Source: a virus. Taken from it: 32,563 bases of DNA. The notes beneath the pieces are model-generated. The model did not search any database and was not told where the DNA came from. It saw nothing but the letters and a program-made list of their open reading frames with translations. Of the stretch, positions 1,357-32,563 are shown one piece after another (the first letter of the stretch is position 1; each line of letters starts with the position of its first letter). Location of the stretch: positions 1-32,563 of the IMG/VR virus record IMGVR_UViG_3300043445_000138; one strand, written 5' to 3'. A program made the position numbers and the translations under genes.

Positions 1357-2786
1357 TGGGCGGATTTGCCGAGGGTTTTTATCTGCGCGGCGAGGGTGGC
1401 GATCGAGGCTTTGAGAGCGGCGCTCTCCAGTTTTTGTTTATCAAAGACGGCCTGAAGGTTGGCGGCGGCTTCGACGAGGGCCTTGGCTTCTTCGGCGGTG
1501 GTGCCGCCTTCCTGCGCGGCGGCGGCGGCGTCGTTGAGGGCCTTGGCGGCGGTGAAGAGTTCGGGCGACTTGGCGGCGGCCCCGGAGCGGCCGACCTGCT
1601 GGGCGCCAGCTTGCAGGCCGGGGGCGGCGGCGCGGGTGTTGAAAAGTGCGGCGGCCTCGGCGGCGGCGTCTGCGCGGGCGGCGGCGTCTGCTTGGCGGGC
1701 GGGGACAAGAGCGGCCTCGGTCTGAACGCGGCGGGTCTCTTCCTGTATGGGGGCGAGGGCTTTTTGCTGACCGCGCACACGGGCCACCTCGGCCTCGGCT
1801 GCGGCGAGGTCTTCGGCGCTCTTAAGGGCGGCTTTATTGGCGGCCTCGAGCTGCTTGGTGGCCTCGGCCAAGGCGGTCTCGTTGGCGGCTTTTGTCTTCG
1901 GGTCGTTGAGGCGGGAGAGCTCGGCGTTGAGCGGCACGTTGGCGCGGGCGGCGGCGCTGGCGACGGTGCGGCTGCCACCACGGGCGGCGGCGTTGTTGGC
2001 GGCGATCTCGCGCTCGATCTCGCGGGCGCGGGCGAAGGGCTGGCTGGCGGCCGTGAAGTTGGCGGCGGCTCCCGTCTCGGCACGCGAGGCTTCGTCGCGG
2101 GCGGTGCGGCGGATGCCGACGACGCCTTCGGCCTGGGCGACTGCGGAAGCACTGCGGCGCGTGGCGGCGCGCTCGGCGATCGCGGCGCGGCGGGTGACTT
2201 TCTCTTCGGCGGAGAGCGAGGGGTCGGCCTCGATCTTGGCGAGGTCGAGCTGGTCCTGAGCGTCTGCCAACTCGTTGGCGGCGGTTATGGCGGCGGTGAG
2301 GGCGGTGAGGGCATCGTCGGCCCGGCCGGCGATGGCATCGAGTTCGGCTCGCAGGGTGTCCAGCCTTTGTTCGCCGAGTTTTTTGGCCGCAGCGGTGACG
2401 GCATCGACGGAATTTGCGGCATCGTCGGCGGCTTTCTTTTTTTGGACAAAGCCCTGGATGATGGGGAGCAGGATGGTGGCACCGATGGCCCCGATGGTGA
2501 GCAGCCCGCCGATGAGGTTGGTCTTGAGCAACGCACCGACCGCCTTGATGGCGGCTCCGAGCTGGCCGAGGGCGAGGACGTTGCCTCGGGAAATATCGCC
2601 GAAGACTCGACCGGCGGCGGCGCCCTTATCGAAGTTTTCACCCAGTTCGTTGACTGCCTTGCCTTGGGCGAGCGCAGCGGCCGTGCCCTTGCCGGCGGCC
2701 TTGGAGACATCATTGAGCGACGACGCGGCGGCCTTGGAGCCGGTGGTATCGGCGGTGGTGACGATTTTTATGTCGAGGGGGTCCAT
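1353..2786 (-). CDS. Tail tape-measure-like protein
   Basis: 477 aa and very Ala-rich. A hydrophobic stretch at about residues 70-113 (ending LLPIIQGF) is followed by long charged alpha-helical, coiled-coil-like sequence to the C-terminus. Tape-measure proteins fill the tail lumen, set tail length and carry hydrophobic segments that may help DNA cross the inner membrane. The place between tail-tube-like and hub-like genes fits. At 477 aa it is short for the class, so a short tail is expected. It overlaps the next gene by ATGA. The high Ala and GC content creates long open frames on the opposite strand here, which I treat as shadows. Confidence 0.6.
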   Translation of the reverse strand: MDPLDIKIVTTADTTGSKAAASSLNDVSKAAGKGTAAALAQGKAVNELGENFDKGAAAGRVFGDISRGNVLALGQLGAAIKAVGALLKTNLIGGLLTIGAIGATILLPIIQGFVQKKKAADDAANSVDAVTAAAKKLGEQRLDTLRAELDAIAGRADDALTALTAAITAANELADAQDQLDLAKIEADPSLSAEEKVTRRAAIAERAATRRSASAVAQAEGVVGIRRTARDEASRAETGAAANFTAASQPFARAREIEREIAANNAAARGGSRTVASAAARANVPLNAELSRLNDPKTKAANETALAEATKQLEAANKAALKSAEDLAAAEAEVARVRGQQKALAPIQEETRRVQTEAALVPARQADAAARADAAAEAAALFNTRAAAPGLQAGAQQVGRSGAAAKSPELFTAAKALNDAAAAAQEGGTTAEEAKALVEAAANLQAVFDKQKLESAALKASIATLAAQIKTLGKSAQ

Positions 2787-2825
2787 GGTTGGCAGGTCAA
2801 TTTGAGAGCGAGAGACCGCAGGGAA

Positions 2826-3233
2826 TCAGGGCGCGAGGAGCGCGGCCCAGCGAGTGGTGGCGATGATGCCGAGCGCATCCGCACCGGCCACGAAAGGGGC
2901 GAAGGCGGGGTGGGCTTCGCTGATGATGCCGGTGGCGCGGGCGGCATCCACAGCGCGGCGGATGCCGATGTGGGGCGAGGTGGTGAGCGCGTCGTATTCA
3001 GCGTCGGTGAGTCGCGCCAGCACGACCTCGGTTTCTTGTTGGCGGGGCACCGGTGGAGTGGCAGGCGCAGGCGGAGGCAGGATCAGCTCATAATCCTCGG
3101 CGGCGACGCTGGCTGTCTCGGGCTGGATCACGGTGCTGGCGGCGTGTGCGCGGAGGATGCCCGTCACCCCGTCGGCAAGGCGGCGATGGGTGGGGCTGGC
3201 GGTGTTCGCGCGAAAGGTGTATTTCATGTTCAT
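2826..3233 (-). CDS. Small protein between fibre and tape-measure genes
   Basis: 135 aa, family not recognised. It starts at one of two close ATGs (3233 or 3227), three bases after the stop of the fibre gene. A Pro-rich linker in the middle separates a short N-terminal part from a helical C-terminal half. The position just after a tail-fibre gene is where fibre chaperones or tail-assembly proteins often sit, but nothing in the sequence proves this. It reads as a normal member of the late operon. Confidence 0.55.
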   Translation of the reverse strand: MNMKYTFRANTASPTHRRLADGVTGILRAHAASTVIQPETASVAAEDYELILPPPAPATPPVPRQQETEVVLARLTDAEYDALTTSPHIGIRRAVDAARATGIISEAHPAFAPFVAGADALGIIATTRWAALLAP

Positions 3234-3236
3234 AAA

Positions 3237-4559
3237 TTAGAAAATCAAGGTCCACCCGATCGAAACCAGATCAGCCCGCACTGCGGCGGATGCGGCGGTG
3301 GGATCACCCGTGGAGCCCGTGATATCGACGTAGAGGTATGCTGGCCGGGTGACGGCGTAGGCGTTAAACCAGCTGTCGATGAAGGCGGATGTGAGTCCGG
3401 GGCAGTTGGAGGCATATAAGTTATTCTCTCCCGTATTTGGCCACGCCCAGTTTGGAAGGCTTGTGAGGCAGGGGTTGTCGGAACAGTTGACGGTGTTCAC
3501 GTTCGCCCAGTTCGGCAGACTTGTGAGGCCGGGGCAGTTGTAGCAGCTGACGTTATTCACGTTCGCCCAGTTCGGCAGAGTCGTGAGGCCGGGGCAGTTG
3601 TAGCATCCGACGAAGCTCACGTTCGCCCAGTTTGGCAGAGTCGTGAGGCCGGGGCAGTTGGGGCATGCGACGAAGCTCACGTTCGCCCAGTTTGGCAGAG
3701 TCGCGAGGCCGGGGCAGTTGGAGCATTCGACGAAGCTCACGTTCGCCCAGTTTGGCAGGCTCGTGAGGCCGGAATTGTCGGCGCAGTTGACGCTACTCAG
3801 TCCGGTCATGCTGCCCACCGAAAAAGCCACGATCTGCCGCGATAAAATCTCCAGGCTGGTGATATTTCCACTGCGGGTGCCGCCTCCGTTGGAGACCGAG
3901 AGGATGCCCATCGCCCGCAGGCCAGAGCCTGCGGGTATGGTCAGCGTGATGTTGTTGCCTGGCGCTCCCGTGCCGGCTTGCACGCCCAAGGTGCCGTCGG
4001 GGTTGATGAGGCGCGCATACCCGGTCGAGGTTTTAGCCGTAAACACACCTGCATCGGTGCGCGTGGTCGCGAAGTGCATGGTGCCGTCGTTGAGCGGCCA
4101 GCGGCGGGTGAGTTCGGCGATGAGGGCATCTGCCAATTTCGACGAGATGACCGCAGCCGACAGGGAGTCGCCGGTGGCGAGGCCGGTGACGAGTGCTTGC
4201 CGCGCCGCGGCCTCGGCGGCGATGTCACTCGCGAGTCCCGCATCCGCCGCCACGCGCGCGGACGTCTCGGTGGCGAGGCCGGTGGCGAGTGCTTGCCGCG
4301 CCGCAGCCTCGGCGGCGATGTCACTGGCGAGTGCCGCATCCGCCGCCACGCGCGCGGTCGTCTCGGCGGCGAGCTGGGCGGGGGTCGCGGCGGCGTAGGG
4401 CAGGGCATTCCAGGCGAGCGCGCCGTCGCCGATTTTCACGCGGGGCTGCGCTCCCGACGAGGCGGGCAGCTCGATGCCGGGCTCGCCCTGGGCGAGCACG
4501 GGGTTGAGCGAGGTCCAGTTGGCGGCCGTGTCGCGGCGGAGTTTGATGCGGGTGGGCAT
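3237..4559 (-). CDS. Tail fibre-like protein with LRR-like repeats
   Basis: 440 aa. The frame is open further upstream, but the ATG at 4559 is chosen because the longer version would run through gene 4603-5070. Residues 1-55 (MPTRIKLRRDT... with GEPGIEL) look like the N-terminal attachment module common in tail fibres (as in major tropism determinants). Residues 64-128 are two 32-aa Ala-rich helical repeats, probably a trimeric stalk. Residues about 255-375 are six 20-aa repeats built on LPNWANV-x-x-V-x-C-x-x-CPGL, a leucine-rich-repeat-like solenoid with paired Cys. The last 65 residues form a cap. The repeat face varies from copy to copy and is the likely receptor-binding surface. No reverse transcriptase is nearby, so this is not a retroelement-diversified protein within the window. 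Confidence 0.7.
   Translation of the reverse strand: MPTRIKLRRDTAANWTSLNPVLAQGEPGIELPASSGAQPRVKIGDGALAWNALPYAAATPAQLAAETTARVAADAALASDIAAEAAARQALATGLATETSARVAADAGLASDIAAEAAARQALVTGLATGDSLSAAVISSKLADALIAELTRRWPLNDGTMHFATTRTDAGVFTAKTSTGYARLINPDGTLGVQAGTGAPGNNITLTIPAGSGLRAMGILSVSNGGGTRSGNITSLEILSRQIVAFSVGSMTGLSSVNCADNSGLTSLPNWANVSFVECSNCPGLATLPNWANVSFVACPNCPGLTTLPNWANVSFVGCYNCPGLTTLPNWANVNNVSCYNCPGLTSLPNWANVNTVNCSDNPCLTSLPNWAWPNTGENNLYASNCPGLTSAFIDSWFNAYAVTRPAYLYVDITGSTGDPTAASAAVRADLVSIGWTLIF
3421..3790 (-). repeat. 60-bp tandem repeats in the fibre gene
   Basis: About six tandem units of exactly 60 bp (20 codons). The four from 3541 to 3780 are nearly identical and carry GTTCGCCCAGTT in register. 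Differences cluster at codons for the residues around the first Cys of each unit. The outermost copy (3421-3480) is degenerate. Unit number could change by recombination or slippage without shifting the frame. Confidence 0.9.
4191..4375 (-). repeat. 96-bp tandem repeat in the fibre stalk
   Basis: Two near-identical 96-bp units (beginning GAGTGCTTGC at 4191 and 4287 on the + strand) encode the duplicated 32-aa helical segment ARVAADA-x-LASDIAAEAAARQ. This looks like stalk lengthening by in-frame duplication. Confidence 0.85.
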
Positions 4560-7569: not shown

Positions 7570-8745
7570 TCACGGGGTGCCCCCTTCCGTTTTGACGTAG
7601 AGCGTCTGCAGGTTGACCGCGCCGGTCTTGGGCGCGGGGCGCCAGGTGACCATGACCGAGCGGCCGATGATGGCTTTTTCGAAGACCAGGTCGCCGGGGG
7701 TGTCGCCGGGGGTGACCTTGTCGGGGTCGCGCCATACGTGGGGCAGCAGCTCGATGTCGAGCGAGTCGAGCGGGCGCTGGTCGCCGCGCTTCTCACCGCC
7801 GGGGCCGTGGTCGCGCCACACCTTGCGCAGGTGGTCGGCATCGAGCTTGAGCACGGCTTCGGGCTTGAGCTGCACGCCGGCCTGGCGGGCGAGGTCGAGC
7901 GTCTTGCCCGTGGCCTGGCCGAGGTCGAGGGTGCGCTTGAATTGGTTGTCGGCCAGTGCGGCTTCCAACGTGTCGCGCAGGCGCTGGCCCTGCCACACGA
8001 CCTTGCCGCCGCGCACATCGACCTGGTCGCCGAAGATGGACTTGAAGCCTTCGACGGTGGCGGGCGAGGCATCGGGGAGCGTCGCCTGCAGCGAGTCGTT
8101 GAAGCCCGCCGCGATGGGCGTGACCGGCTCGCCGGGCTGGAGGAAGCCCAGCTCCTCGGCGGTGGTGCGGTCGAGGCTGCGCACGCCCATGCCGGAGTTG
8201 AAATCGAAAGGCGGATACGGTGTGCCGAAGCGCGAGATCGCCGCCCACACCGGGTCGCTCTTGAGCGCGATCATGCGACCGCCGAAGAACGTGCCCCCGG
8301 CGGCGGCCCAGCGGGCGGCCCAGTCGCGGGGTTCTTCGCGGCCTTCGTCGCGCACGAGTTCCCACAGCGGGTAGGCGTCGAGGGCGGCGGGGTCTTGCTC
8401 GGCGAGGAAGCGGCCGTAGCCCTGGGCCTGCTCAAGGGGCGTGTCGAGAATCAAGTTGAGGCGCGACTCGCTGCCAAGATCGGTCAAGTCACCGGGGTCG
8501 CGGGAGGTGTCGCCAAAGGAGCCGAGGAGTTTTTGGAGCGCGTCGCGGGCCTCGGTGCGGGAGATCCTGGCCTCGGCGAGTCCTTCGACCTGGCGGCGGG
8601 CCTCGGCGAGGAAGCGCAGGTCTTGGACGCGGGCGGAGAAAAACGCCCGGTCGCGCAAGCCGAGCGACACCTCGCCCCACTGCTTGGCGGAGAGATCGGC
8701 CAGCACGGGAGTGCGGCGGCGGAGGGTGTCGAGGATGTCGGGCAT
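7570..8745 (-). CDS. MuF-like head protein with probable BECR nuclease C-terminus
   Basis: 391 aa, starting at ATG 8745 (MPDILDTLRRRTP); the open frame continues upstream but overlaps gene 8751-9200. Residues 1-250 match the phage head-morphogenesis (Mu gpF/gp30-like) pattern, including the Gly/Asp/Phe-rich segment PPFDFNSGMGVRS (residues 178-190). Residues about 296-388 look like a separate domain: a helix with WRDHG (H313), a DI-x-LLP-x-V-x-x-DPDKV element, a strand ending in FEK (K357) and a last strand QTLYV (T381, Y383). That is the order seen in phage PBECR (Barnase-EndoU-colicin-RelE-like) RNase domains, which are known to be fused to MuF proteins. The MuF call is good; the nuclease domain is inferred. 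Confidence 0.7.
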   Translation of the reverse strand: MPDILDTLRRRTPVLADLSAKQWGEVSLGLRDRAFFSARVQDLRFLAEARRQVEGLAEARISRTEARDALQKLLGSFGDTSRDPGDLTDLGSESRLNLILDTPLEQAQGYGRFLAEQDPAALDAYPLWELVRDEGREEPRDWAARWAAAGGTFFGGRMIALKSDPVWAAISRFGTPYPPFDFNSGMGVRSLDRTTAEELGFLQPGEPVTPIAAGFNDSLQATLPDASPATVEGFKSIFGDQVDVRGGKVVWQGQRLRDTLEAALADNQFKRTLDLGQATGKTLDLARQAGVQLKPEAVLKLDADHLRKVWRDHGPGGEKRGDQRPLDSLDIELLPHVWRDPDKVTPGDTPGDLVFEKAIIGRSVMVTWRPAPKTGAVNLQTLYVKTEGGTP

Positions 8746-8750
8746 GGGAG

Positions 8751-9200
8751 TCAGAGTCCGTCGCTGAGGGTGCGTCCGGTGGTGCGGTCGCGGGCTTTCC
8801 AGCGCGGGGTGGGCGTGCTGGCTTGCTCGGTGGTGGGGGTGGCGGGAGTGACGACGAAGAACCTGCAGGCGGCCACGTCGCGCAGGAGCCCGAGGGCGTT
8901 GCTGTTGGCAGTGCGGCGGTCTTCGGTGAGCAGCGACGCGACAGGCAGGCGCGTCGCCAGCTCGAAGCGTATGCGGCTGATGGCCGCGCCGAGGAGCTCG
9001 TCGGGGATGGTGTCGCCCTCGCCGAGGGTGTTGCGCTCGCAGCCGCGCACGTAGCCGCGGATCTCGCGCACCACCTGAGTGATGATCTCGGGCAGCGGGT
9101 TGACCTGCGCGGCTTGGAGCGCTGCGCCCTTCATCGCCGCCAGCTCCGGGCCGGAGAGCTTGGTCGTGACGTCGGCTTCGGTGAGAGTGATCCAGGCCAT
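8751..9200 (-). CDS. gp36-like (DUF1320-type) head-tail adaptor
   Basis: 149 aa, from ATG 9200. It opens with MAWITLTEADV, then a helical core (EIITQVVREIRGYVRG; IPDELLGAAISRIRFELATRLP), the layout of Mu gp36 / DUF1320 proteins thought to sit in the neck. It is flanked by the 471-aa secreted-looking gene and the MuF-like gene. Length and pattern fit the family, with a longer, Pro/Thr-rich tail than usual. Confidence 0.6.
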   Translation of the reverse strand: MAWITLTEADVTTKLSGPELAAMKGAALQAAQVNPLPEIITQVVREIRGYVRGCERNTLGEGDTIPDELLGAAISRIRFELATRLPVASLLTEDRRTANSNALGLLRDVAACRFFVVTPATPTTEQASTPTPRWKARDRTTGRTLSDGL

Positions 9201-12557: not shown

Positions 12558-13112
12558 GGTGGTGTTGTTTTGATTTTCCTGGGCGGAAAGGGATTGGTCG
12601 CGGTTGGCGATCGGCAGCATGCCTTTGAAGCGGGGGTCGTTGGTGAGGGCGCCGCGCAGGAGCACGACGGGCGCGACTTTCTCGCCCTCGCGATAGTCTC
12701 GGGGGGCGAAGCCGAGCACGGGGCTGAACAGCCGGTAGTCGCCGCCCTCCAGCGCGGCGCGCCCGCTGGCGGAGAACTTCACGCGGCCCCACAGGCCGTC
12801 GTCGCGGGCCTCGACCTCCTCGATCCAGCCGGCGGCGCGGGTGCTCTTGTCGTCGTCGTGCGAGAAATGATCGAAGTCCACGAGCATGCCGGGGAAATTG
12901 GGCTGCGCGGCCGAGGCGCGGAACTTTTCGGCGATGACCTCGGCGCTCTCGCGGTCGAGCACCTGGGTGATGGTGACCTCGCCGCCACCCGGCAGGCGCA
13001 TGGGCGCGGCGAGCTCGCCGTAGGGCGCGAGCTGCACCCAGCCATCGGTCGGGAGCGCGAAGGCCGCGTCGCTGGCGCGGTTGAGGGTGATGGGGAGGCT
13101 GGTGGTGTTCAT
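12096..13112 (-). CDS. Mu I-type prohead protease / scaffold
   Basis: 338 aa, starting in an ATGA overlap with the portal gene (13109-13112). Residues about 1-175 match the Mu gpI protease family: PGMLVDFDHFSHDDDKSTRAAGWI has the His-bearing segment, followed by GLWGRVKFSASGRAAL and YRLFSPVLGF with the expected Ser. The C-terminal part (from about residue 186) is highly charged and helical, suited to an internal scaffold. An internal in-frame ATG (12557) opens exactly at this junction (MDYKAKLLALLGL) and may give a separate scaffold, as gene Z does inside gene I of Mu. Confidence 0.75.
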   Translation of the reverse strand: MNTTSLPITLNRASDAAFALPTDGWVQLAPYGELAAPMRLPGGGEVTITQVLDRESAEVIAEKFRASAAQPNFPGMLVDFDHFSHDDDKSTRAAGWIEEVEARDDGLWGRVKFSASGRAALEGGDYRLFSPVLGFAPRDYREGEKVAPVVLLRGALTNDPRFKGMLPIANRDQSLSAQENQNNTTMDYKAKLLALLGLAATATDAEIESALTPATDNMAAGKQLPEVKNRLVALEKQLVEHDLDKAGLQGEARTAATALLTKNRDEGLAFIAALGKQGSGYAPVHNRDGKRPPGGHAPAADKLSQAEAKVQAYRTANRCTYEQAHAAVRAAEPALFTA

Positions 13113-14653
13113 CGGGCGAAAAGGTTGGTGAGCCAGGCGAGCGGGCCTTGGCGGCGGTTCTTGGTGGTGGCGGTGGCCTCGGCGCCACCGGCGGCGCCGT
13201 TGATGAGGGCGGTGCCGAGGATATGCTCGAAGGCCTTGGCGGTCGCGCTGTCGGCCCCCTGCTTCTTCATGAGCGCGGGGAGTTGCGTGCGGATCTCGGC
13301 GGCGGCGGCTTCAAACGCGGCGTCGTCTTCCTTGGCGAGCGCGTCCTGGAGCGCGGCGCGCAGGGGGGCGAGGTCGGCCTGGATCGCCTTGGCGAGTTTC
13401 TCCAGGCTGGCACGGCGCAGGGCCTCGGCATCGGGCGAGAGCGCGCCCGCGCGGTTGAACGTGGATCCGGGCGCGCCGCCACCAAAGGCCGGCGCAGCGG
13501 CGACGGGGGCGACGGTTAGCTTGAGGCCGGTCTTCTCCGCCAGCTCGGCGGCATCGAGCCGGAAGCCGGCCTGCGACGCCTTGACCGCGTGATCGAGGAG
13601 CTGGCCGACATCGGTCTGGTCCTTGGCGGCGAGCTCGAAGTAGGCGAGCGGGCGCACGCCGGGAGCGAGATTGAGGAGGACGCGGTCGAGCTGGCGCTGG
13701 AAGATCTCACTGATCTCGCCGGCCTCGGCCTGGGCAAGCTCGGCAAACGTATCGGCATGCACATCGCTTTGCCCGCTACCGAGGCCGGTGGGGCCGTTGA
13801 GCATGGTCAACTTGCCGGAGGTGCCGGCCAGCACGAGCTGGGCGTCCTGGTAGTCGAGGTGCTGCTGGAAGGGGTTCACTCCACGGGCGCCGCTGGTGAC
13901 CGTCTGGACCTTCGCGCCGTTGGGCAGCGCGCCGCGCATGTCGCCCACGACGGCCTCAGCCATGGCCTGATACTCCTTCTCCTTCTCGGGCGGCACCTGA
14001 GCGGGCATCTCGATGAACAGCGGGTCTATGCCGTAGACCTCGATGAAGGCGTCCCAGTCTTTTTGAGAGAGATTTTTCCGCAGGAAGCAGATGAGGCCGA
14101 TTTCGTTGATCGGGTCTTCGATGTCGCGGATGACGAAGTGCGCGGGGTCGATGGGCGTGCCGCTGATGGTGCCGGACGAGGCGGCGGGGTTATACACCCA
14201 CGGGCCGTAGATGGTGTCGCGGGCCATGAACCACTGCTCAACCGGCTCCAATCGCACGATGCCGCCGGCGGGGTTGTCGCCCGCGTAGCGCTTCTCCAGG
14301 TGGGCAAAGCCCCGGAAGGTGGCGAGCCCGAGGAAGCGGATGGCCTCGCGGAGGTTCTCAACGCGGTCGTAGGCGGCGCGCAGCGTCTCGGCCTGCGCCT
14401 TGGCGGCGGGCGAGTCGTCCACGCTCTTGATGTCCCAATCGAGCTTGCCGAGGGCGGAGAGCCGCAGGTGCTTGAGCGCGCGCAAGGTGGCCTCGCGTTT
14501 TTCGATAAAGCGATAAGTCCACATCAGCTCGGCGTAGGCCCCGCGCTCGCCCCCTTCGAGGAGCGACACGGCGCGCTGGAACGTGAGCGAGCGGAGCGGG
14601 TTGAACTGGGCGCGCCACTTGGCGGCGGCCTGGAGTTGGCGTGGAAGGCTCAT
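13109..14653 (-). CDS. Portal protein (Mu gp29-like, DUF935)
   Basis: 514 aa, matching the DUF935 portal family: N-terminal region with WTYRFIEKREATLRALKHLR (about residues 46-65), then the conserved-type segments LGLATFRGFAHLEKRY and VEQWFMARDTIYGPWVYNP, and a helical C-terminus rich in Ala. Twelve copies would form the ring through which DNA is packaged. Its start overlaps the end of the terminase gene (14650-14653, ATGA) and its end overlaps the protease start, as expected in a tightly coupled packaging block. Confidence 0.85.
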   Translation of the reverse strand: MSLPRQLQAAAKWRAQFNPLRSLTFQRAVSLLEGGERGAYAELMWTYRFIEKREATLRALKHLRLSALGKLDWDIKSVDDSPAAKAQAETLRAAYDRVENLREAIRFLGLATFRGFAHLEKRYAGDNPAGGIVRLEPVEQWFMARDTIYGPWVYNPAASSGTISGTPIDPAHFVIRDIEDPINEIGLICFLRKNLSQKDWDAFIEVYGIDPLFIEMPAQVPPEKEKEYQAMAEAVVGDMRGALPNGAKVQTVTSGARGVNPFQQHLDYQDAQLVLAGTSGKLTMLNGPTGLGSGQSDVHADTFAELAQAEAGEISEIFQRQLDRVLLNLAPGVRPLAYFELAAKDQTDVGQLLDHAVKASQAGFRLDAAELAEKTGLKLTVAPVAAAPAFGGGAPGSTFNRAGALSPDAEALRRASLEKLAKAIQADLAPLRAALQDALAKEDDAAFEAAAAEIRTQLPALMKKQGADSATAKAFEHILGTALINGAAGGAEATATTKNRRQGPLAWLTNLFAR

Positions 14654-16236
14654 GCGAGGATGGTGCGTTCACGCCGGGAGCTGCGGGCGCGGGAGGCTTG
14701 GGTGGGGCCGAAACGGTGGAAGTTGCCGGGGGTGCCAGAGGTCTTGGCGGCGTGCAGCGAGAGTGCCCACGCCCAGAACTCGTCGGCGTGGCCGCTCTCG
14801 TTGCGCTCGGCGACGAAGCGGATGTTGCCGGCGGCGGTCGTCTCTTTGCGGATCGAGCGGAAGGCGGCGGTGATGGTGCGGTCGTCGGGGATGCGGGCGC
14901 TCTTGTCCTCGGCGGCGGCGCGAGCGGGATAGGCCAGCTCTTCCTTCACCGCACCCGTGAAGGTGACGGCTTCGACCTTGTAGGTGCCGAAGCGGGCCTG
15001 CGCACGCTCGACCAGCTGGCGACCGATGCCGGTGTTGTCGATGCAGGCGCGGCGCATCGAGGGCAGCGCGAGCAGTTCGTAGAGGGCGTGCTCCTGCGCC
15101 TCGAAGGTGCAGTTCTGGAGCTTCACCAGCTTGCGGGTGAAGTGGACCCCGCCGAGGTGTTCGTTGACCCAGAAGCAGGTCAGGTCTTTCACGCGGCCGA
15201 TGTCGCCGCCGAGGTAGAGCGGGTTCTTGCACGCGGCCAGCTCGGCCATGGTGTATTCCCAGCGCTCGGTGGGTTTGTATTTGATCCCGTCGATCAGCTC
15301 ATAGCTGAGGAAGGCGCCGGCGTCGTCGGCCGGCACGCACATGAACTCTTGGAGAAATGATTCCTCGTCGGCGCAACCGGCTTTGATGAAGTCGAAGTAG
15401 TCGGCCTCGTCCATCGCCATGCGGGCGTCGTCGGCGGGGAGCTTCAACTGGAGCTTGTAGAGCAGGCCGGCATCGAGCGCATCCTGGAGCGTGACGGTGT
15501 GCAGGCTGATGCCCTTGGGGTTGCCCTTGTGCTTCACCTCTTGGATGAGCTCGTTGAAGAACGTGGCGGAGCCGCGGTGCGTGGACCACGCGGCGAGCGA
15601 CCCGCCCCACGTGATGCCGGGGTAGGCGATGGCCCAGAGCTTGCGCGGGTCCTTGTGCAGGCCGAACTCGTCGATCTTGCGCCCGCCGCGCTTGCCGGCC
15701 TGCGCGTCGGGGTTCGACGACATGGAATTGGCCCGGCGACCGTTGGCGAATTGGAGCACCTGCGCGCTGTTGCCTTTGTCATCGAGGATTTTCTCGCCAA
15801 GATACTCCGCCCCGATGTTGAGCAGGCGGGCGAAGGCCTTGCAGTCGTCGAGGAAGAGCCGCGCCTGGATCTCGTCGCGGCTGGTGATCCACTCGTCGAA
15901 CTGGGCATCGACCAGGCTGGTGGTCGTGACGATCTCGTAGGCGCTCGCCCAGGTCATGCCGATCTGGCGGGACTTCTCCATGAGCTTGAGGCGGGAGCGG
16001 TCGCGCACCCACTTCGCCTGGTAGTCGAGCATGAGGGTGTTTTTGGCGGGGATGTTTCTGGCCTTTCCGCCAAACGCGCCCTTGGTCGGGACGTGCGGGG
16101 CTCCGGCGGACGCTCTTAAGCCTGCCTTAAGAACGCCACCAGCGCGCGAACGGGGGGCGGGACGGGTCTTGATACCCCCCGGCGCGTTTACGGGCCGGGA
16201 ATCCGCTGCTTTGGGACTCGGGAATTGAGCGGTCAT
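14650..16236 (-). CDS. Terminase large subunit (Mu gp28-like)
   Basis: 528 aa. The ATPase half has a Walker A-like EKSRQIGMT (residues 87-95) and a Walker B-like KIDEF (187-191). The nuclease half has the RNase H-type acids: D345 in LGGDIGRVKD, D400 in RACIDNTGIG and D475 in HADEF. It translocates and cuts DNA during packaging. The start overlaps the small-subunit stop (ATGA, 16233-16236), so the unusually long, basic, low-complexity N-terminus (about 70 residues) seems translated, though MLDYQAKWV (ATG 16032) is an alternative start. That N-terminal stretch contains one copy of the TTAA-N7-TTAA motif (16115-16131). Confidence 0.9.
   Translation of the reverse strand: MTAQFPSPKAADSRPVNAPGGIKTRPAPRSRAGGVLKAGLRASAGAPHVPTKGAFGGKARNIPAKNTLMLDYQAKWVRDRSRLKLMEKSRQIGMTWASAYEIVTTTSLVDAQFDEWITSRDEIQARLFLDDCKAFARLLNIGAEYLGEKILDDKGNSAQVLQFANGRRANSMSSNPDAQAGKRGGRKIDEFGLHKDPRKLWAIAYPGITWGGSLAAWSTHRGSATFFNELIQEVKHKGNPKGISLHTVTLQDALDAGLLYKLQLKLPADDARMAMDEADYFDFIKAGCADEESFLQEFMCVPADDAGAFLSYELIDGIKYKPTERWEYTMAELAACKNPLYLGGDIGRVKDLTCFWVNEHLGGVHFTRKLVKLQNCTFEAQEHALYELLALPSMRRACIDNTGIGRQLVERAQARFGTYKVEAVTFTGAVKEELAYPARAAAEDKSARIPDDRTITAAFRSIRKETTAAGNIRFVAERNESGHADEFWAWALSLHAAKTSGTPGNFHRFGPTQASRARSSRRERTILA
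16115..16131. repeat. TTAA-N7-TTAA motif, copy 1
   Basis: CTTAAGCCTGCCTTAAG, within the terminase N-terminal coding region. The two CTTAAG hexamers start 11 bp apart. On the coding strand it forces CTT, TTA and AGA codons, which are uncommon in this DNA. See the findings for the four-copy comparison. Confidence 0.85.
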
Positions 16237-23900: not shown

Positions 23901-24620
23901 ATGTCCACCGAACTCCTTAACCCCTCCGAAACCGCCAACGTAGAACTGGGCCGCGAACTCACCCTTCGCTACAACCGCGCCATCAACGCCTGGGGGGCCA
24001 TCCTCCACTTCGGCGCGATGCTCGCGCAGCTGGAAACCCATTTGACGGCATCGTTGCCGTCAAATGAACGCGAGCGCGGCCGCTACGTAAAAGGCTCCGG
24101 CCTTAAGGGCTTCCTCGACACCTACGCGCCGGAGATCGACGAGCGCAAAGCCCGCCGCATCCGCGACGTGGCGCAGGCCGTCGCCGAGCGCGAGAAGATC
24201 GACATCGCCCTCTTCACCGAGCCGGTCGAGGCCCTGCCCGCCGCCGACCGCAAGAAGATCGAGGGCGCGCTCTCCTTCCTCGAGGAGAAAAACATGAAGG
24301 CCGTGCAGCTCGAACTCGGCCTCGTCTCCCGCATGGGTGCCGCCGCCAAGGGCGGCGACCTGGGCGGGCGTCGCAAGGCCGCCGCCGACATGACCGCCGC
24401 CGAGATCGCCCAAGCACAGGAGGCCACCCGCGCCGCCAACGAGAAGGAGTGGACCGCCTGGCTCGACATGCTCGAAGCCTCCGGCCTGCGCATCCCGCAG
24501 TGGTCGTGCCTGCCCCTGCACAAGCTGGAGCGCATGTCGTCGCTCCTCCTCGACGTGCGCAAGCTCGTTGACCAGGCCATCGCCACCGAGCGCCGCAGCC
24601 AGAAGGGAGGCCGCTCATGA
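23901..24620 (+). CDS. Early protein coupled to the transposase
   Basis: 239 aa, all helical. The first 110 residues (LGRELTLRYNRAINAWGAILHFGAML...RYVKGSGLKGFLDTYAPEIDERKARRIRDVAQAV) recall DUF3102-like proteins, small phage/plasmid helical proteins with a repeated-R pattern. It ends in an ATGA overlap with the transposase (24617-24620), so the two are made together and may act together, for instance as an accessory to transposition or as a regulator. The gene contains a 12-bp hairpin (24039-24066). Function unknown. Confidence 0.55.
   Translation: MSTELLNPSETANVELGRELTLRYNRAINAWGAILHFGAMLAQLETHLTASLPSNERERGRYVKGSGLKGFLDTYAPEIDERKARRIRDVAQAVAEREKIDIALFTEPVEALPAADRKKIEGALSFLEEKNMKAVQLELGLVSRMGAAAKGGDLGGRRKAAADMTAAEIAQAQEATRAANEKEWTAWLDMLEASGLRIPQWSCLPLHKLERMSSLLLDVRKLVDQAIATERRSQKGGRS
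24039..24066. repeat. Perfect 12-bp hairpin inside a coding region
   Basis: CATTTGACGGCA, loop TCGT, TGCCGTCAAATG, a perfect inverted repeat in gene 23901-24620. It encodes HLTASLPSN, so codon choice alone can hardly explain it. It could be an attenuator, a protein-binding site or a fossil of a small palindromic repeat. Confidence 0.85.
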
Positions 24621-26677
24621 GCCAGCTCCTCGACAACTCCCGCCGCCTGTTCTTTGTCCCCGCCGCCGACCGCGAGCTGTTCGACACGCAGATCCCCAGT
24701 GCCGCCCGCTCCCGGTGCGAGCTGCTGCTCTGCTGCATGGAGCGCATACACCTCGCCCGCAACCGCAAGGCCGAGTGCGCCGAGATCGCCCGCGGTCTCA
24801 CCCACCTGCGCGGCTGCTCCGCACACCAGCTCAAGCGGCTCTACCTCTCCTTCCGCGCCGCCGGCAACGACTGGCGCAAGCTCGTCCCGGCCTACCACCT
24901 CCCGGCCGAGGAGCACCAGCGCGGTAATCTCTCGCCCGAGTTCATCCGCTACTGGCAGGCCCTCGCCGAGGAGAACCAGCGCGCCGCCCGCCCCGCCTAC
25001 CGTGAGCTCCTCCGCCGCTGGCGCCGGGGCGACGAGATCGGCGGCATGGGCACCTGGCGCCGCTGGTGGCAGGCCAAGTTCAAGGGCCGCCCGCTTCCTG
25101 TCGAGTGCCCCGAAGACATCCCCGCCGGCTGGTCCTACGAAAACCTCCTCGCCCACATGCCCGCCAAGGTCGAGACGATCATCGTGCGCGACGGTCTCTT
25201 CGCCGCCCACGCCGGTCTGTCGCAGATCCTGCGCGACCGCAACCAGCTCCGCCCGCACGAGCTGCTCACCTTCGACGACGCGCAGCTCGACTTCCGCGTC
25301 ATGGCCGAGGGCGGCGTGCGCAAGCTGCGCGGCGTCTTCTGCCTCGACGTGGGCGACGCGTATCTGCTCAGCCACTACACCAAGCCCGTCCTCGCCAAGG
25401 AAGACGGCGGCGAGGAAGGGCTCATGCGCGGCGAGGTGCGCCAGCTCCTGTTCTATCTCCTGCGCGACTATGGCATCCCGCGCGATTATCCTCTCAACCT
25501 CCTGGTCGAGAGCGGCGCGGCCTCCGTCTCCAAGGAAGACGCCGCATGGCTCCACGCCATGAGCGAGGGCCGGATCATCGTCCACCGCACCAGCGTCACC
25601 GAGCGCACTGCCTTCCTCGGGGCCTACTCCGAGCGCTACGGCCAGCCGTGGCACAAGGGCTGGATCGAGGCCTTCTTCAACCTCCTGCACAACGAGTGCG
25701 CCGGTCTCTCCGGCCAGTTCGGTCGCAACCAGCTCGAAGGCAAGACGGGCGATTTCGAGAAAAGGAAGGAGGCCGCGCTCACCCTCTACAAAGCCGCCGA
25801 GCTCCTGCCCGATTTCTACCGCGACCAGCTCTCCATGCCGTTCCCGTCGCTGGCCCGCGCCAACGATTTTTTGGTCGATGTCATCAACCGCATCAACCAC
25901 CGCCGCGACCACCGCCTGCAAGGCTTCGACCGCGTGCCCCAGTGGAGGCTCACCGAGGGCGACACGTGGCGCGACTGGGCCGATCTCCGCGCCCTCCCGC
26001 CCGCCGTCCACGACGCGGTGCAGACGCGTGAGGTGATGGAGTCCCCCGCCGAGCGCCGCGCCCGCCGCTGGGCCGGTCTCGACCGCATCTCGCTCTCCGA
26101 GCTGTCGCTCATCCCGCTGCTCAACGCCAAGCGCACCGTGACCCTGGCAAAGCCCTTCGAGGTGAAGCTCCAGATCGACGGCAAGGGCCACGTTTTTAGG
26201 AAAACCGACAAGGCTCTCGCCAAGGAAGGGCTCACCTTCACCGCCCACTTCGACGAAGACCGCGCCGACTGCATCCACCTCTTCGACGAGGCGGGCCGCC
26301 ACGTCGCCACGCTGCCCCGCGTCGATGGGTTTAACCCGCTCGACCGCGAGGCCTACAAAGCCGCCAGCAAGGAAAACGCCGCCGCCAACCGCGTGCTCCT
26401 CGACAATATCCAGGCGCGCACCGCCGGCCGCGCCGGCGAACGTCTCGCCGCCGAGCAGCACAACCGCGAAGTGCTGGAGACCGCCGCCGCCGACATCGAG
26501 GCCGGCCGCATGCAGCTCACGCCCGCCGAGCGCGCCACGCTCTCCATGCAGGCCGGCGCGGCCGAGGTCCGCACCACCCGCGCCGCCTCCACCAAACGCA
26601 CCACCAAGAAACGCGAGGCCGCCGACAAGACCCTCACCTCCATCACCACCCAGGCCGCCACCATGACCGGCCTCTGA
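24617..26677 (+). CDS. Mu-type DDE transposase (MuA-like)
   Basis: 686 aa, close to MuA (663 aa). N-terminal helical DNA-binding region (1-200), RNase H-fold core with D220 or D221 in LLTFDDAQLDF, then NLLVESGAAS where the second catalytic acid is E298, then E351 in KGWIEAFFNLL. Residues about 505-570 form the Mu-transposase C-terminal barrel, followed by a charged, Ala-rich tail (to 686) that in MuA contacts MuB and ClpX. It would join phage ends to target DNA for replicative transposition and integration. The substitution of Glu for the usual second Asp is noted in the findings. ATGA overlap with the upstream gene. Confidence 0.85.
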   Translation: MSQLLDNSRRLFFVPAADRELFDTQIPSAARSRCELLLCCMERIHLARNRKAECAEIARGLTHLRGCSAHQLKRLYLSFRAAGNDWRKLVPAYHLPAEEHQRGNLSPEFIRYWQALAEENQRAARPAYRELLRRWRRGDEIGGMGTWRRWWQAKFKGRPLPVECPEDIPAGWSYENLLAHMPAKVETIIVRDGLFAAHAGLSQILRDRNQLRPHELLTFDDAQLDFRVMAEGGVRKLRGVFCLDVGDAYLLSHYTKPVLAKEDGGEEGLMRGEVRQLLFYLLRDYGIPRDYPLNLLVESGAASVSKEDAAWLHAMSEGRIIVHRTSVTERTAFLGAYSERYGQPWHKGWIEAFFNLLHNECAGLSGQFGRNQLEGKTGDFEKRKEAALTLYKAAELLPDFYRDQLSMPFPSLARANDFLVDVINRINHRRDHRLQGFDRVPQWRLTEGDTWRDWADLRALPPAVHDAVQTREVMESPAERRARRWAGLDRISLSELSLIPLLNAKRTVTLAKPFEVKLQIDGKGHVFRKTDKALAKEGLTFTAHFDEDRADCIHLFDEAGRHVATLPRVDGFNPLDREAYKAASKENAAANRVLLDNIQARTAGRAGERLAAEQHNREVLETAAADIEAGRMQLTPAERATLSMQAGAAEVRTTRAASTKRTTKKREAADKTLTSITTQAATMTGL

Positions 26678-26727: not shown

Positions 26728-27813
26728 ATGGCCACCAAAGAAACCCTCCCCACCGCCTCGCAACTGCGCGAATGGATCACCTCGGGCACCGAGAATCCCA
26801 AGCGCTTCGCCTACCCGCAGGAGGCCATCGAGCCCACCCTCGGCATGCTCGACTACGCCCACTTCTGCTGCGACTCCAACATCGAGCTCGTCACCGAGAA
26901 ATGCCGCGCCATGGGCTTCACTTACGACCGCCAGTATTACTACCAACTGCTCACGGGCCGCTACTTCCGCGTCGATGGCGACGGCAAAGTCCAAGGCTCC
27001 TGGCGCAACCTCCGCGAGCTGTGGACGCAGGTCGAACTGCGCCTCACCTTCGCCCGCCAGATCTCCAAGGTCATCTTCACCGAGACCACCGTGTGGGAGA
27101 AGATCAACGAATACGTGCAGCGTAAGCGTGTCTCCTACACGTCCTGCAAATTTGGCGCCATCGTGGGCTACACCGGCTCACAGAAATCCGCTTCGTTCAA
27201 CGAGCTGATCCGTCGCGAGGAGCCGGGCACGATCATCCGCATGGAGGCCCCGCCGCTGCCCTCCCTGAGCGAGTTCATCCACAAGCTCTCCGACATCCTC
27301 GGCTCCGCCAAGAGCGACGGCCGCGCCGAGCGCCGCGACTTCATCCGCAAGCATTTCAAAGTGCCTCGCCGCACGCTGATCGTGGACAACATCCAGCGCT
27401 GCCTGTGCCGCTCCGTGAAGAACGGTTCGTATCAGCCGATCTTTGAGTTTCTCCTCGAGCTCCAGGAAGACACCGGCTGCACGATCATCATCAGCTGGAC
27501 GCCCGACGCCGACAAATTCGAGGAGGCGCTCAAAAGCGCCTTCTTCGAGCAGTTCATCGGCCGCATCGGGGGCGAGCGCGAGATCTTGCGCCTCGACGAG
27601 TTCACCAACGACGAGGACATCCGCCGGTTCTGCCGCACGTTCAAAGTCGAGGAGGCCGACATCGAGGAGCTGATGCCCCGCCTGCGCACCCTCGTGCAGG
27701 AGAAGGGCAGGGTGCGGCCGCTCATCCAGGCGCTCCAGGCAGGCCACCGCCTGGCCAACGCCGCCAACAAGCCCTACCGCGCCGCCCACCTACGCACCTA
27801 TCTCGCCGACTGA
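26728..27813 (+). CDS. MuB-like target-selection ATPase
   Basis: 361 aa, AAA+ fold. Residues about 1-110 are N-terminal DNA-binding-type helices; the ATPase has a Walker A-like GYTGSQKS (147-154), where a Gln stands in place of the usual third Gly, and a Walker B-like RRTLIVDNIQR (D220). MuB binds and prepares target DNA, and stimulates MuA. It lies directly after the transposase, the conserved A-B order. Start codon ATG 26728 follows the recurring 'CACCGACCA' leader. Length exceeds that of Mu B (312 aa). Confidence 0.8.
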   Translation: MATKETLPTASQLREWITSGTENPKRFAYPQEAIEPTLGMLDYAHFCCDSNIELVTEKCRAMGFTYDRQYYYQLLTGRYFRVDGDGKVQGSWRNLRELWTQVELRLTFARQISKVIFTETTVWEKINEYVQRKRVSYTSCKFGAIVGYTGSQKSASFNELIRREEPGTIIRMEAPPLPSLSEFIHKLSDILGSAKSDGRAERRDFIRKHFKVPRRTLIVDNIQRCLCRSVKNGSYQPIFEFLLELQEDTGCTIIISWTPDADKFEEALKSAFFEQFIGRIGGEREILRLDEFTNDEDIRRFCRTFKVEEADIEELMPRLRTLVQEKGRVRPLIQALQAGHRLANAANKPYRAAHLRTYLAD

Positions 27814-29936: not shown

Positions 29937-30206
29937 ATGAGCACTGCACCAAAACCCTTCGCCGCGCTGACGCTCCCCGAGTGGGCCGACTACATGCGCG
30001 AGATCTTGCAACGCGAAGGCCGCGCCGTGCGCTCCGGCGGCGCCAATCTCACAATCGAGGCCAAGTCCCTCACCACCGACCAGTGGTATTCCCTCCCGCT
30101 CCCGCCGGACGGCAAACCGCAATTCACCACCACCACCGACCGCGACCAAGCCCTCGCCCGCATCTTGGAGCCGAACGCCGCCGTCAGACGCGATCCGCAG
30201 CAATAA
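29937..30206 (+). CDS. Last early-operon gene, ends inside attC-like site
   Basis: 89 aa, from ATG 29937 with a clear Shine-Dalgarno sequence (AAAGGAGG about eight bases upstream). A helix (LPEWADYMREILQREGRAV) and strands form a small alpha/beta protein. Its last 12 codons lie in the left arm of the attC-like repeat (30170-30206), the way cassette genes commonly end. It could be the last phage gene or the first cassette. Not recognised. Confidence 0.55.
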   Translation: MSTAPKPFAALTLPEWADYMREILQREGRAVRSGGANLTIEAKSLTTDQWYSLPLPPDGKPQFTTTTDRDQALARILEPNAAVRRDPQQ

Positions 30207-30283
30207 ACCAATATCATGAAAACGCTTGAAATCTTAAAATCACCGGAAGCCTGCGGATCGTTGTCTGTAGGGCATGGTTCTGC
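30170..30283 (+). other. attC-like recombination site 2
   Basis: Read left to right: R''-like GCCGAAC (30170-30176); a spacer; L'' CAGACGCGATCCGCAG (30185-30200); a variable loop (30201-30250); L' CTGCGGATCGTTGTCTG (30251-30267); spacer; R'-like GTTCTGC (30277-30283). L'' and L' pair over about 15 positions with one extra base on the right arm, the extrahelical feature typical of attC. The right half is nearly identical to that of site 1 (GTT-TCTGTAG-GC-TGGTT). Both outer boxes deviate by one base from RYYYAAC / GTTRRRY. Confidence 0.7.
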
Positions 30284-30797
30284 TCCGTTGTCCGAGTCCG
30301 AACGCGAGCAAGTCGAAGCGCTCTTCAACGCCGGAGCGGCCCGAATGACCGCCGACGATGAGCACTGGATACATGGCCACGACGAGGGCCTCAGCTACTG
30401 CTACGAATGCGCGACCAAGAAGGTGGCCGAGCTGCTCGAAAAAGAACCCAGCGCCGACTACTGCGTAGATGGGGGCTGGCGCTCCGAAAGCGACTCCACG
30501 CCCTTCTGTGAATCGTGCAGCAAACTGCTCGACGCGAGCCTCACGGAATACGGATGCGAGGCGGAGCTGGATCAGTTCACGACCTACGGTTTCGATCCGA
30601 AATCGGACGACGACTGCCGGGCGATGTCCGAAGTCATCAACGCGATGGGCTGGGAGGTGCACGACTTACCGCACGAAGCCGAATACAAGAAGCGCTCGCG
30701 TGCCGAACGCTTCGCGCAGCTCTACGCGCTTTGCCGATCGATCCTCGATAAACTGGCTTTGCAGAACACCATCGTGAGCAATTCGGCGGGATCGTAG
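30216..30797 (+). CDS. Cassette ORF: Cys-rich, zinc-binding-like protein
   Basis: 193 aa if started at ATG 30216, which lies in the loop of the attC-like site; TTG 30288 or ATG 30345 (after the site) are likely starts. Two CxxC pairs, YCYECATKK (about residues 61-69) and FCESCSKLL (about 96-104), suggest a zinc-binding fold; there is a further C113 and C137. The rest is acidic and helical. Codon use looks less extreme than in the phage genes. It lies between two attC-like sites, so it is a cassette gene. No family recognised. Confidence 0.6.
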   Translation: MKTLEILKSPEACGSLSVGHGSAPLSESEREQVEALFNAGAARMTADDEHWIHGHDEGLSYCYECATKKVAELLEKEPSADYCVDGGWRSESDSTPFCESCSKLLDASLTEYGCEAELDQFTTYGFDPKSDDDCRAMSEVINAMGWEVHDLPHEAEYKKRSRAERFAQLYALCRSILDKLALQNTIVSNSAGS

Positions 30798-30824
30798 TTC
30801 CGCCGGCAATTTACCACCCAAATT

Positions 30825-31151
30825 ATGAGCACTAAAAATCCGCAAGAAGCAGCCGAATTGGATCCAAGAACTGGTTCGGCTGTTTCGCCGCTCCTCAACC
30901 GCGAACGCATCCTCGCCGCGCTCGCCGACTCCCTCACGCAAGAGGAAATCGACACCGCCGCGCAAACGCTGAGCAACGACGCCGCGCCTGCCGAAATCGT
31001 CGGAATACTGGCGATCCTCGCGGCCCTGCGCAACTCCCGCACGGAAGCCGCTGGCGAGGCCGAAGACGACGGATTCACCGGCGACCTAGAGCGCGCCGAC
31101 GCAGAGCGCTACGATCAATGCTTCGCCGCGCTCGCCGAGGAGTGGGAATGA
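30825..31151 (+). CDS. Cassette ORF of unknown function
   Basis: 108 aa, all-helical and acidic (NRERILAALADSLTQEEIDTAAQTL; GDLERADAERYDQCFAALAEEWE). The stop lies five bases before the R''-like box of site 1. It shares the cassette with the Cys-rich ORF upstream, 27 bases away. The acidic character would suit an antitoxin-like or inhibitor protein, but nothing proves this. Confidence 0.55.
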   Translation: MSTKNPQEAAELDPRTGSAVSPLLNRERILAALADSLTQEEIDTAAQTLSNDAAPAEIVGILAILAALRNSRTEAAGEAEDDGFTGDLERADAERYDQCFAALAEEWE

Positions 31152-31155
31152 TTCT

Positions 31156-31241
31156 GCCGAACGTCGCGGTCAGAGACGCGGAGGACGGCTCCCATACGCA
31201 AAGGGGCGATTGCCCGCGTTCTCTGTAGTGCGTGGTTGGGC
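31156..31241 (+). other. attC-like recombination site 1
   Basis: GCCGAAC (31156-31162), spacer, L'' CAGAGACGCGG (31171-31181), loop (31182-31213), L' CCGCGTTCTCTG (31214-31225), spacer TAGTGCGTG, GTTGGGC (31235-31241). The L boxes pair perfectly apart from one extra base on the right arm; the outer ends extend the pairing (GATTCTGCCGAAC with GTTGGGCAGGATC). R' is a perfect GTTRRRY box. Left half matches site 2 at GCCGAACG-CGC-GTCAGA. Confidence 0.8.
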
Positions 31242-31270
31242 AGGATCGAAACTTTAACCTCACAAATAAC

Positions 31271-31495
31271 ATGAAAGTAAAACTACCTGAAGGCTGGGAG
31301 AAATGCCGCGTCGGCATCAAGGGCGTGCGCAAATGGCGAAACATGGCGACCGCGTGCTGGGTGACAGAACGCGACGACGACACGGAGACGCTCCACTGCG
31401 GAATCAAGGGCGTAGCCGTGAAGATCGACCGCACCACGAACAGCGCACAACAGGCGGTGGACTCTATCCACGCGATGACTTTGCCCAACAGGTGA
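31271..31495 (+). CDS. Cassette ORF, 74 aa
   Basis: Starts 29 bases after attC-like site 1 and ends within the GCCCAAC box (31483-31489), the reverse complement of the GTTGGGC that opens the cassette. This is the signature of a cassette. The protein (MKVKLPEGWEKCRVGIKGVRKWRNMATACWV...) is a small beta-rich, basic one. Twenty-four bases separate it from the integrase ATG. Confidence 0.6.
   Translation: MKVKLPEGWEKCRVGIKGVRKWRNMATACWVTERDDDTETLHCGIKGVAVKIDRTTNSAQQAVDSIHAMTLPNR
31483..31489 (+). other. R''-like half box before the integrase
   Basis: GCCCAAC exactly complements the cassette start GTTGGGC at 31235. No matching L' / R' half follows; intI begins at 31520. It may be a truncated attC, or part of an attI-type site. 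Confidence 0.5.
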
Positions 31496-31519
31496 TTCTG
31501 GAACCCGAGTTCGTATATC

Positions 31520-32563
31520 ATGAAACTCTCGATGACCCGCATTCGCTGGCTCCGTCTCACCGCTAAACAGCAGGCGGCCATCGAGGCTCAGATTGAAGCG
31601 ACTCGATCCGACATCCGCGTCCGCAAGTGGGCACTTACCACCGAGCGGAGCTACACCATGTGGGTCCGCCGCTACGGCATCTGGCTCGCGATGAGCCCCG
31701 AGGCTCGCACCGCGCCAGATGCCACCGCCCGCGTCACCGGCTATCTCAAACAACTCGTCTCCGGTCCCAGTCCACGTTCGGGCACAACTCTTAAGCAGGC
31801 CTTAAACGCCCTCGTTTATTATTACAAAGAGGTCCGCAAAGAACCTCTCGGCCGCCTCGGTGACATTCCCCAACCCAAGCGTGCCGAGCGCCTGCCCCAC
31901 GTCCTCACCCGCGACCAGGTCCGCGAGTTGATTGCCGCGGTCGTGGACACGCCCGACTATCCTTACCGCCTGATCGCCCGTCTTCTCTACCACACCGGCA
32001 TGCGCATCGGCGACGTCCTCGATCTCCGCGTGCAAGACATCAACTGGGAGCAGTCCGAACTCCTCCTCCGCGATGGAAAAGGCGGCAAAGACCGCGTCGT
32101 CCCGCTTCCTCGCGCCATGCTCCCCGAGCTGCGCGCCCAGCTCGACCGCGTCAAAACCCTCTGGCAACGCGATCAACTCGACCGCATCCCGGTCGCGCTG
32201 CCCGATTCACTTTTTAATAAATGCCCCCGCTACGGCCTCGCCTGGCCGTGGTTTTTTGTTTTTGCCGCGCCGTCTCGCTGCCGCCATCCCCGCCTCGGTC
32301 ACATCGTCCGCTGGCGCCTGCACGACAAAACCCTCCAGACCGCCATGCGCGACGCCGCCGACCGCGTCGGCCTCCTCGGTGTCGCGACACCTCACCGCCT
32401 GCGCCACGCCTACGCGACCCACCTCCTGGAGAGCGGCGTAGATATTCGCGCCGTCCAAGACATCCTCGGCCACGTCAACGTCGAGACGACGATGATCTAC
32501 ACGCACCCCTCGACCCGCGGCGTCCACGTCCGCGCCTCCGTCGAAGCCTTGGCTATCCCATGA
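31520..32563 (+). CDS. intI: Integron integrase (IntI-like tyrosine recombinase)
   Basis: 347 aa, complete to the last base of the window. Tyrosine recombinase residues: R162 in HTGMRIGD, K187/K190 in RDGKGGKDR, H292 and R295 in PHRLRH, H318 in ILGHVN and the nucleophile Y327 in MIYTHP. The IntI-specific extra segment is present (about 226-262: ALPDSLFNKCPRYGLAWPWFFVFA...SRCRHPR, closely matching [25 protein letters not shown] of IntI1). This excites folded attC DNA recombination. It is on the same strand as the cassette ORFs. Its early part contains copy 4 of the TTAA motif (31790). ATG 31532 is an alternative start. Confidence 0.9.
   Translation: MKLSMTRIRWLRLTAKQQAAIEAQIEATRSDIRVRKWALTTERSYTMWVRRYGIWLAMSPEARTAPDATARVTGYLKQLVSGPSPRSGTTLKQALNALVYYYKEVRKEPLGRLGDIPQPKRAERLPHVLTRDQVRELIAAVVDTPDYPYRLIARLLYHTGMRIGDVLDLRVQDINWEQSELLLRDGKGGKDRVVPLPRAMLPELRAQLDRVKTLWQRDQLDRIPVALPDSLFNKCPRYGLAWPWFFVFAAPSRCRHPRLGHIVRWRLHDKTLQTAMRDAADRVGLLGVATPHRLRHAYATHLLESGVDIRAVQDILGHVNVETTMIYTHPSTRGVHVRASVEALAIP
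31790..31806 (+). repeat. TTAA-N7-TTAA motif, copy 4
   Basis: CTTAAGCAGGCCTTAAA inside intI (codons CTT AAG CAG GCC TTA AAC). Half-sites 11 bp apart. The codons CTT and TTA are out of style here. Flank TC before and ACGCC after matches copy 1. Confidence 0.85.

Follow-up and report, generated by a model that had tools for sequence, protein, structure and literature searches.

Integrons are bacterial gene-capture devices in which a promoter at attI, Pc, reads the newest cassette first, and in conventional attC sites the extrahelical extra bases lie on the L'' arm. Integrons and CALINs are already known in phages (PMC9892861). In the integrons of Treponema, intI is transcribed toward attI and the cassettes follow the 3' end of intI (PMC3607928).

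The locus described here closes a linear virus record from IMG/VR that is 32,563 bases long (the whole record is referred to as the window) and whose last base is the end of the intI stop codon. The reading that we favor, with a probability of roughly 85%, is a complete phage-borne integron with conventional recombination geometry, in which the genes are reversed and would be read by a phage operon instead of Pc. On sequence grounds, the polarity of attI, intI and attC is standard, and it is the genes that are reversed, each having attC at the 5' end.

The window phage is Mu-like, judging from the joint presence of a MuA-like DDE transposase (24617-26677, + strand; the rve_3 match is weak on its own), a MuB-like ATPase (26728-27813, +; AAA_22, E 9e-14) and a Mu-type portal protein (13109-14653, -; Portal_Mu, E 1.1e-42). 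A terminase large subunit is encoded at 14650-16236 on the - strand (Terminase_6C, E 4e-12). The ends of the record are probably not the phage ends. Among the structural genes, positions 3430-3780 hold tandem copies of a unit of about 60 bp (GTTCGCCCAGTT..GGCA) that code for a repeated segment. An Rfam scan of the window gave no match.

The two attC hairpins proposed in the earlier note, at 30170-30283 and 31156-31241, proved to be real: both fold into attC-like stems with z of about -2 (-1.9 and -2.0; ssDNA, both strands). A weak attC at 30761-30880, absent from that note, has the right-arm motif and folds poorly (z -0.95/-1.33). All three sites are assigned to the - strand; for the first, this makes the right arm R'' and the left arm R', with a predicted crossover at 30175/30176. 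The right-arm motif scores 29.6, 23.9 and 26.8 bits at the three sites in order of position, always on the + strand and within the same 1 kb, and the next-best score in the window is 8.2 bits, although the motif was built from a set that includes these three sites. In both good sites, the right arm carries two more unpaired bases than the left (7 left and 9 right at 31156-31241), as the earlier note had observed, and extra bases on the right arm are also found in most attC sites of the related phages described below. Relaxed hairpin matches elsewhere in the records are chance palindromes and were excluded from the counts.

Once the weak site is counted, the array consists of three single-ORF cassettes. 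Cassette A encodes 193 aa (30216-30797) and cassette B 108 aa (30825-31151), each from an ATG inside its attC; cassette C encodes 74 aa from an ATG (31271-31495) or 87 aa from a GTG at 31232, and its TGA stop lies within attI. The reported placement of all cassette ORFs and intI (31520-32563) on the + strand, with the cassettes upstream, therefore holds. Codon scores favor these ORFs in cassette A (51 vs 20 for the best - strand ORF) and in cassette B (40 vs -17). None of the three proteins has a convincing match in Pfam, NCBIfam or PHROGs. The putative attI (AACAGGTGATTCTGGAACCCGAGTTCGTATATC, about 33 bp, 31487-31519, -) fills the space between the last cassette and the intI ATG, and its crossover is predicted between 31488 and 31489.

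The intI gene is intact and encodes an integron integrase of 347 aa. It scores 273 bits against the integron-integrase model TIGR02249 (cut-off 265) and matches IntI4 of PDB 2A3V (E 1.9e-46) in an alignment that spans the IntI-specific insert, here the AWPWFFVF region. The catalytic residues are R162, H292, R295, H318 and Y327.

Viral-contig scans revealed relatives of this integrase with 70-81% identity in six records: G001 (IMGVR 3300045051_000975), G002 (IMGVR 3300011997_000009), G003 (IMGVR 2508501067_000006), G004 (IMGVR 3300049823_000465), G006 (IMGVR 3300020202_000132) and G007 (IMGVR 2517572100_000006). Another record, G005 (IMGVR 3300033475_000115), was found via its transposase, which is 88% identical to that of the window (G002, 29%; G001, 26%). 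The G005 integrase passes TIGR02249 and is 35-38% identical to the window's, and its array is reversed as well. In the IntI tree, the window clade is grouped with full support and the G005 integrase stands apart, with long branches placed uncertainly. Altogether, the layout of the window recurs in seven further phage records, so that what the earlier note had seen at one locus is beyond chance and more general than that note could show. In the related records, the strong right-arm motif matches lie on the intI strand.

An eighth record, G008 (IMGVR 3300000271_000006), is a 69.9 kb phage record unrelated to the window phage. It carries reversed-cassette arrays near 36.9-40.0 kb (+) and at 2.7-3.0 and 13.6-15.0 kb (-), one of them a seven-site array that terminates in a copy of attI without intI. 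Since no IntI match was found anywhere in the 69.9 kb, these arrays would need an integrase in trans.

Two more distant records deserve mention. In the phage record L006 (IMGVR 3300001199_000109, 1954-3816), a distant IntI (39%) is accompanied by ORFs directed toward intI and by a single attC, in which the extra base apparently lies on the right arm; this may be a further lineage in which the layout is reversed. L039 (Virus Rctr41k, KX853513, 68-5678) has an integron-like integrase with co-directional upstream ORFs, and no convincing attC was found upstream of this integrase.

Could the window integron be a decayed remnant, with both integrase and sites inactive? The poor fold of the middle attC (30761-30880) would fit. 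However, the catalytic residues are intact and invariant in five relatives, and between G003 and G007 intI differs by 143 synonymous vs 34 non-synonymous codon changes, indicating that IntI is under purifying selection. The array content of these two close relatives differs, and attI and intI are kept in both. From this selection and this turnover we infer that IntI is probably active, and we regard decay as unlikely.

A second possibility is that a host chromosomal integron merely adjoins a prophage by chance and is unconnected with the phage. The window record breaks off precisely where intI stops, the kind of end seen in trimmed proviruses, and integrons have been reported in Verrucomicrobiota, the likely host phylum (PMC8618304). 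The right flank of intI, at which the window record stops, is known from the relatives, and there the evidence points the other way. G003 and G007, which belong to a phage type other than that of the window, have homologous phage genes on both sides of mutually non-homologous arrays, which places the integron inside the phage. G001, G002 and G005 share homologous genes 3' of intI, and the 70 kb G008 phage record carries such arrays without any intI. Finally, a search of a genome collection with clade patterns (84,980 species) detected no relative of the intI clade above 41% identity, as opposed to several at 70-81% in the viral scans. Chance adjacency to a host integron thus appears quite improbable, and the phage-borne reading is retained in what follows.

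The direction of the cassette genes is nearly uniform. In 40 of 41 cassettes of the related arrays, a count that includes weak sites with motif-based limits and cassettes that are not all independent, the better-coding ORF lies on the strand of the attC right arm and points toward attI and intI. The exception is G006 8223-8578, where a + ORF of 114 aa starting in attC stands against a - ORF of 42 aa. G007 was left out of this count; it has a variant attI, and the attC-like sites upstream of it are all weak. Many more cassettes in conventional order, which the earlier note had named as evidence against its own proposal, did not turn up. At 23 of the 41 sites, an ATG frame starts inside attC and remains open for 40 codons or more beyond the right arm, although a few of these frames are probably due to chance. 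Because these ATGs lie inside attC, a crossover at the right arm would cut off the starts on excision.

Pfam domains were identified on the right-arm strand in ORFs of five arrays: Dam methylase, C5 methylase, DUF5131, ASCH and HTH, with the C5 methylase and DUF5131 genes coming from the G007 region that adjoins attI. The ASCH-domain protein is an integron cassette in G004 (178-609), and a relative is encoded just upstream of the G007 integron (8482-8970).

The limits of the mobile unit could be mapped in cassette A, whose protein has a homologue in a G008 cassette (54.6% over 185 aa, E 1e-64). The G008 copy was found by protein comparison, and with the cassette A ORF as query no further viral copies appeared. 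At the DNA level, homology covers window positions 30171-30770: it starts at the left box of the cassette's own attC, takes in the right arm and the ORF, and ends three bases past the left box (GCAGAAC) of the next attC. Outside both ends, ungapped identity falls to 0.34 (null median 0.36), which is the random level. Just inside the 3' end it is 0.70-0.76, and across the leftmost 24 bases of the homologous stretch about 0.50; the left boundary is therefore softer than the right, since the attC hairpin itself is only about 50% alike. Both junctions were mapped by anchored ungapped comparison, as a gap-permissive global alignment was too noisy for the left one. By these limits, the mobile unit includes the attC before the ORF and excludes the one after it. 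A cassette common to G003 and G006 likewise stops at the next left box, and an attC common to G002 and G005 (92%) starts at the left-box AAC and extends beyond the right arm. Junction mapping in relatives, which the earlier note had suggested, thus indicates that the mobile units span from left box to left box, with ORFs that read toward attI and intI.

These junctions also bear on the more conservative explanation that the cassettes are ordinary, with attC at the 3' end of each gene, and entered from a distal attI on the left, the sequence before intI being a leader. In its favor, each + ORF stops at an attC or a few bases short of one, and the right-arm boxes partly match GTTRRRY. Yet the attC that belongs to the shared cassette is the one 5' of the ORF and not the one 3' of it, the start codons lie within the upstream attC, the distal array ends have no conserved sequence, and copies of attI are present at array ends that lack intI. 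The arm that carries the bulges, moreover, is that of conventional controls with the opposite ORF direction. We therefore consider ordinary cassettes very improbable.

The controls were two phage integrons of normal layout, those of the Vibrio anguillarum phage p16 and the Shewanella prophage M16-3, with intI set to the + strand. In these, most cassette ORFs are on the - strand, and it is chiefly the right arm that carries the extra bases, just as it does in the window family. Since the bulge arm is shared, the attC sites of the window family have conventional polarity relative to intI, and it is the ORFs that are opposite. Complementarity of the R boxes was dropped as an orientation criterion, because identical matching ends are predicted either way.

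The position of attI leads to the same picture. A sequence of about 30 bp directly before the intI start, beginning with the AAC in the box of the last cassette (AACARGTGATTCTGG...TTCGTATATC), is kept in the window, G001, G002 and G006; G004 has AACGAGTGATTCTGG, and G003 and G007 have a variant. The cassette-side bases before this AAC vary among records. G006 contains three attI copies (4615, 9730 and 18814 in intI-forward coordinates), each of which ends an array, and intI follows only one of them. Almost no conserved sequence was found at the distal array ends, where the bases outside the distal left arms have near zero information. As the conserved sequence lies before intI and the distal ends are unconserved, attI can be placed 5' of intI, its standard position. 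No clear attI was seen beyond the opposite end of intI, where its presence would have spoken against the earlier proposal. The integrase starts only about 30 bp beyond the last cassette, so that the divergent promoters usual in integrons would have little space. A promoter scan, of limited power in these hosts, showed no sigma-70-like site in this interval.

The earlier note had offered two explanations, ORFs antisense to their cassettes or an inverted integron like that of Treponema denticola, and the first of these is favored by the attI position, the attC polarity relative to the controls, the junctions and the starts inside attC. A Gemmatimonadota contig, L013 (JACPPC010000004.1, 10001-14286), has attC sites past the 3' end of intI with left-arm bulges and resembles an inverted integron of the Treponema type, here in a phylum other than the spirochaetes. 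A Treponema-type arrangement, with intI reading toward attI, cassettes past the intI 3' end and genes co-directional, can hardly apply to the window: intI and cassette genes are indeed co-directional as in Treponema (PMC3607928), but cassettes and attI-like sequence lie at the 5' and not the 3' end of intI with the ORFs directed toward attI, the relatives have phage genes downstream of intI instead of attI and cassettes, and L013 has its bulges on the opposite arm.

If the window does hold a conventional integron with reversed genes, IntI would fold the + strand of attC, which corresponds to the cassette 'bottom' strand, and would insert the cassette at attI beside intI, as in other integrons. 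Transcription of the cassettes would come by read-through from the rightward early phage operon (transposase, ATPase and small genes) and not from Pc. It would run from the oldest cassette to the newest and then into intI, which would be co-transcribed after the cassettes. Cassette genes would be retained only in the reading direction of the phage, many of them starting within their own attC. The array may thus serve as a slot for the exchange of small accessory genes between phages, unrelated ones included, with DNA methyltransferases, an ASCH-domain protein and a helix-turn-helix regulator as examples of what is exchanged.

Should this prove true, a phage family would have separated capture from expression, keeping the recombination geometry and turning the genes. 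The expression gradient would be inverted, with the newest cassette last, followed by intI, and phages would be using integrons as an accessory-gene exchange slot of their own. The starts within attC suggest that the hairpins may double as translation starts. Integron annotation tools are likely to misread such a layout. We also lean toward the broader view that these loci form a phage-adapted class of integrons, with genes whose starts fall at or within the attC of the same cassette, a phage operon that reads toward attI, cassettes common to unrelated phages, and integrase supplied in trans to phages that carry attI and cassettes only. This class would comprise at least two integrase lineages, the window clade and that of G005.

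In the literature searched, which did not extend to subscription papers and preprints, we found no report of all-reversed arrays, of attC 5' of the cassette genes or of integrons in Mu-like phages. The nearest described systems are the integrons of Vibrio anguillarum phages and the Shewanella prophage M16-3 (PMC9892861; MK672802, MZ568829), which are phage-borne, have the same intI/attI/attC polarity and also include an attI copy at an array without intI. Their genes run away from intI, whereas those of the window family are reversed, and they derive from host chromosomal integrons, whereas the intI clade of the window was not found in host genomes. The CALINs of virulent phages (PMC9892861) resemble G008 in being phage attC arrays without an integrase, but the G008 array has its own attI at the end and its genes are reversed. 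The inverted integrons of Treponema (PMC3607928) share the co-directional intI and cassette genes; there, however, intI points toward attI, while in the window intI points away from attI and the genes toward it. A gene lying against the array direction is also known from a V. cholerae toxin-antitoxin cassette with an opposite promoter (PMC11014356). Such reversed genes in chromosomal integrons are exceptions with their own promoter, whereas in the window family practically all cassettes are reversed and co-directional with the phage operon. Where genes in a typical integron run away from attI and have attC at their 3' end, those of the window family run toward attI in all but one of the cassettes counted and have attC at the 5' end.
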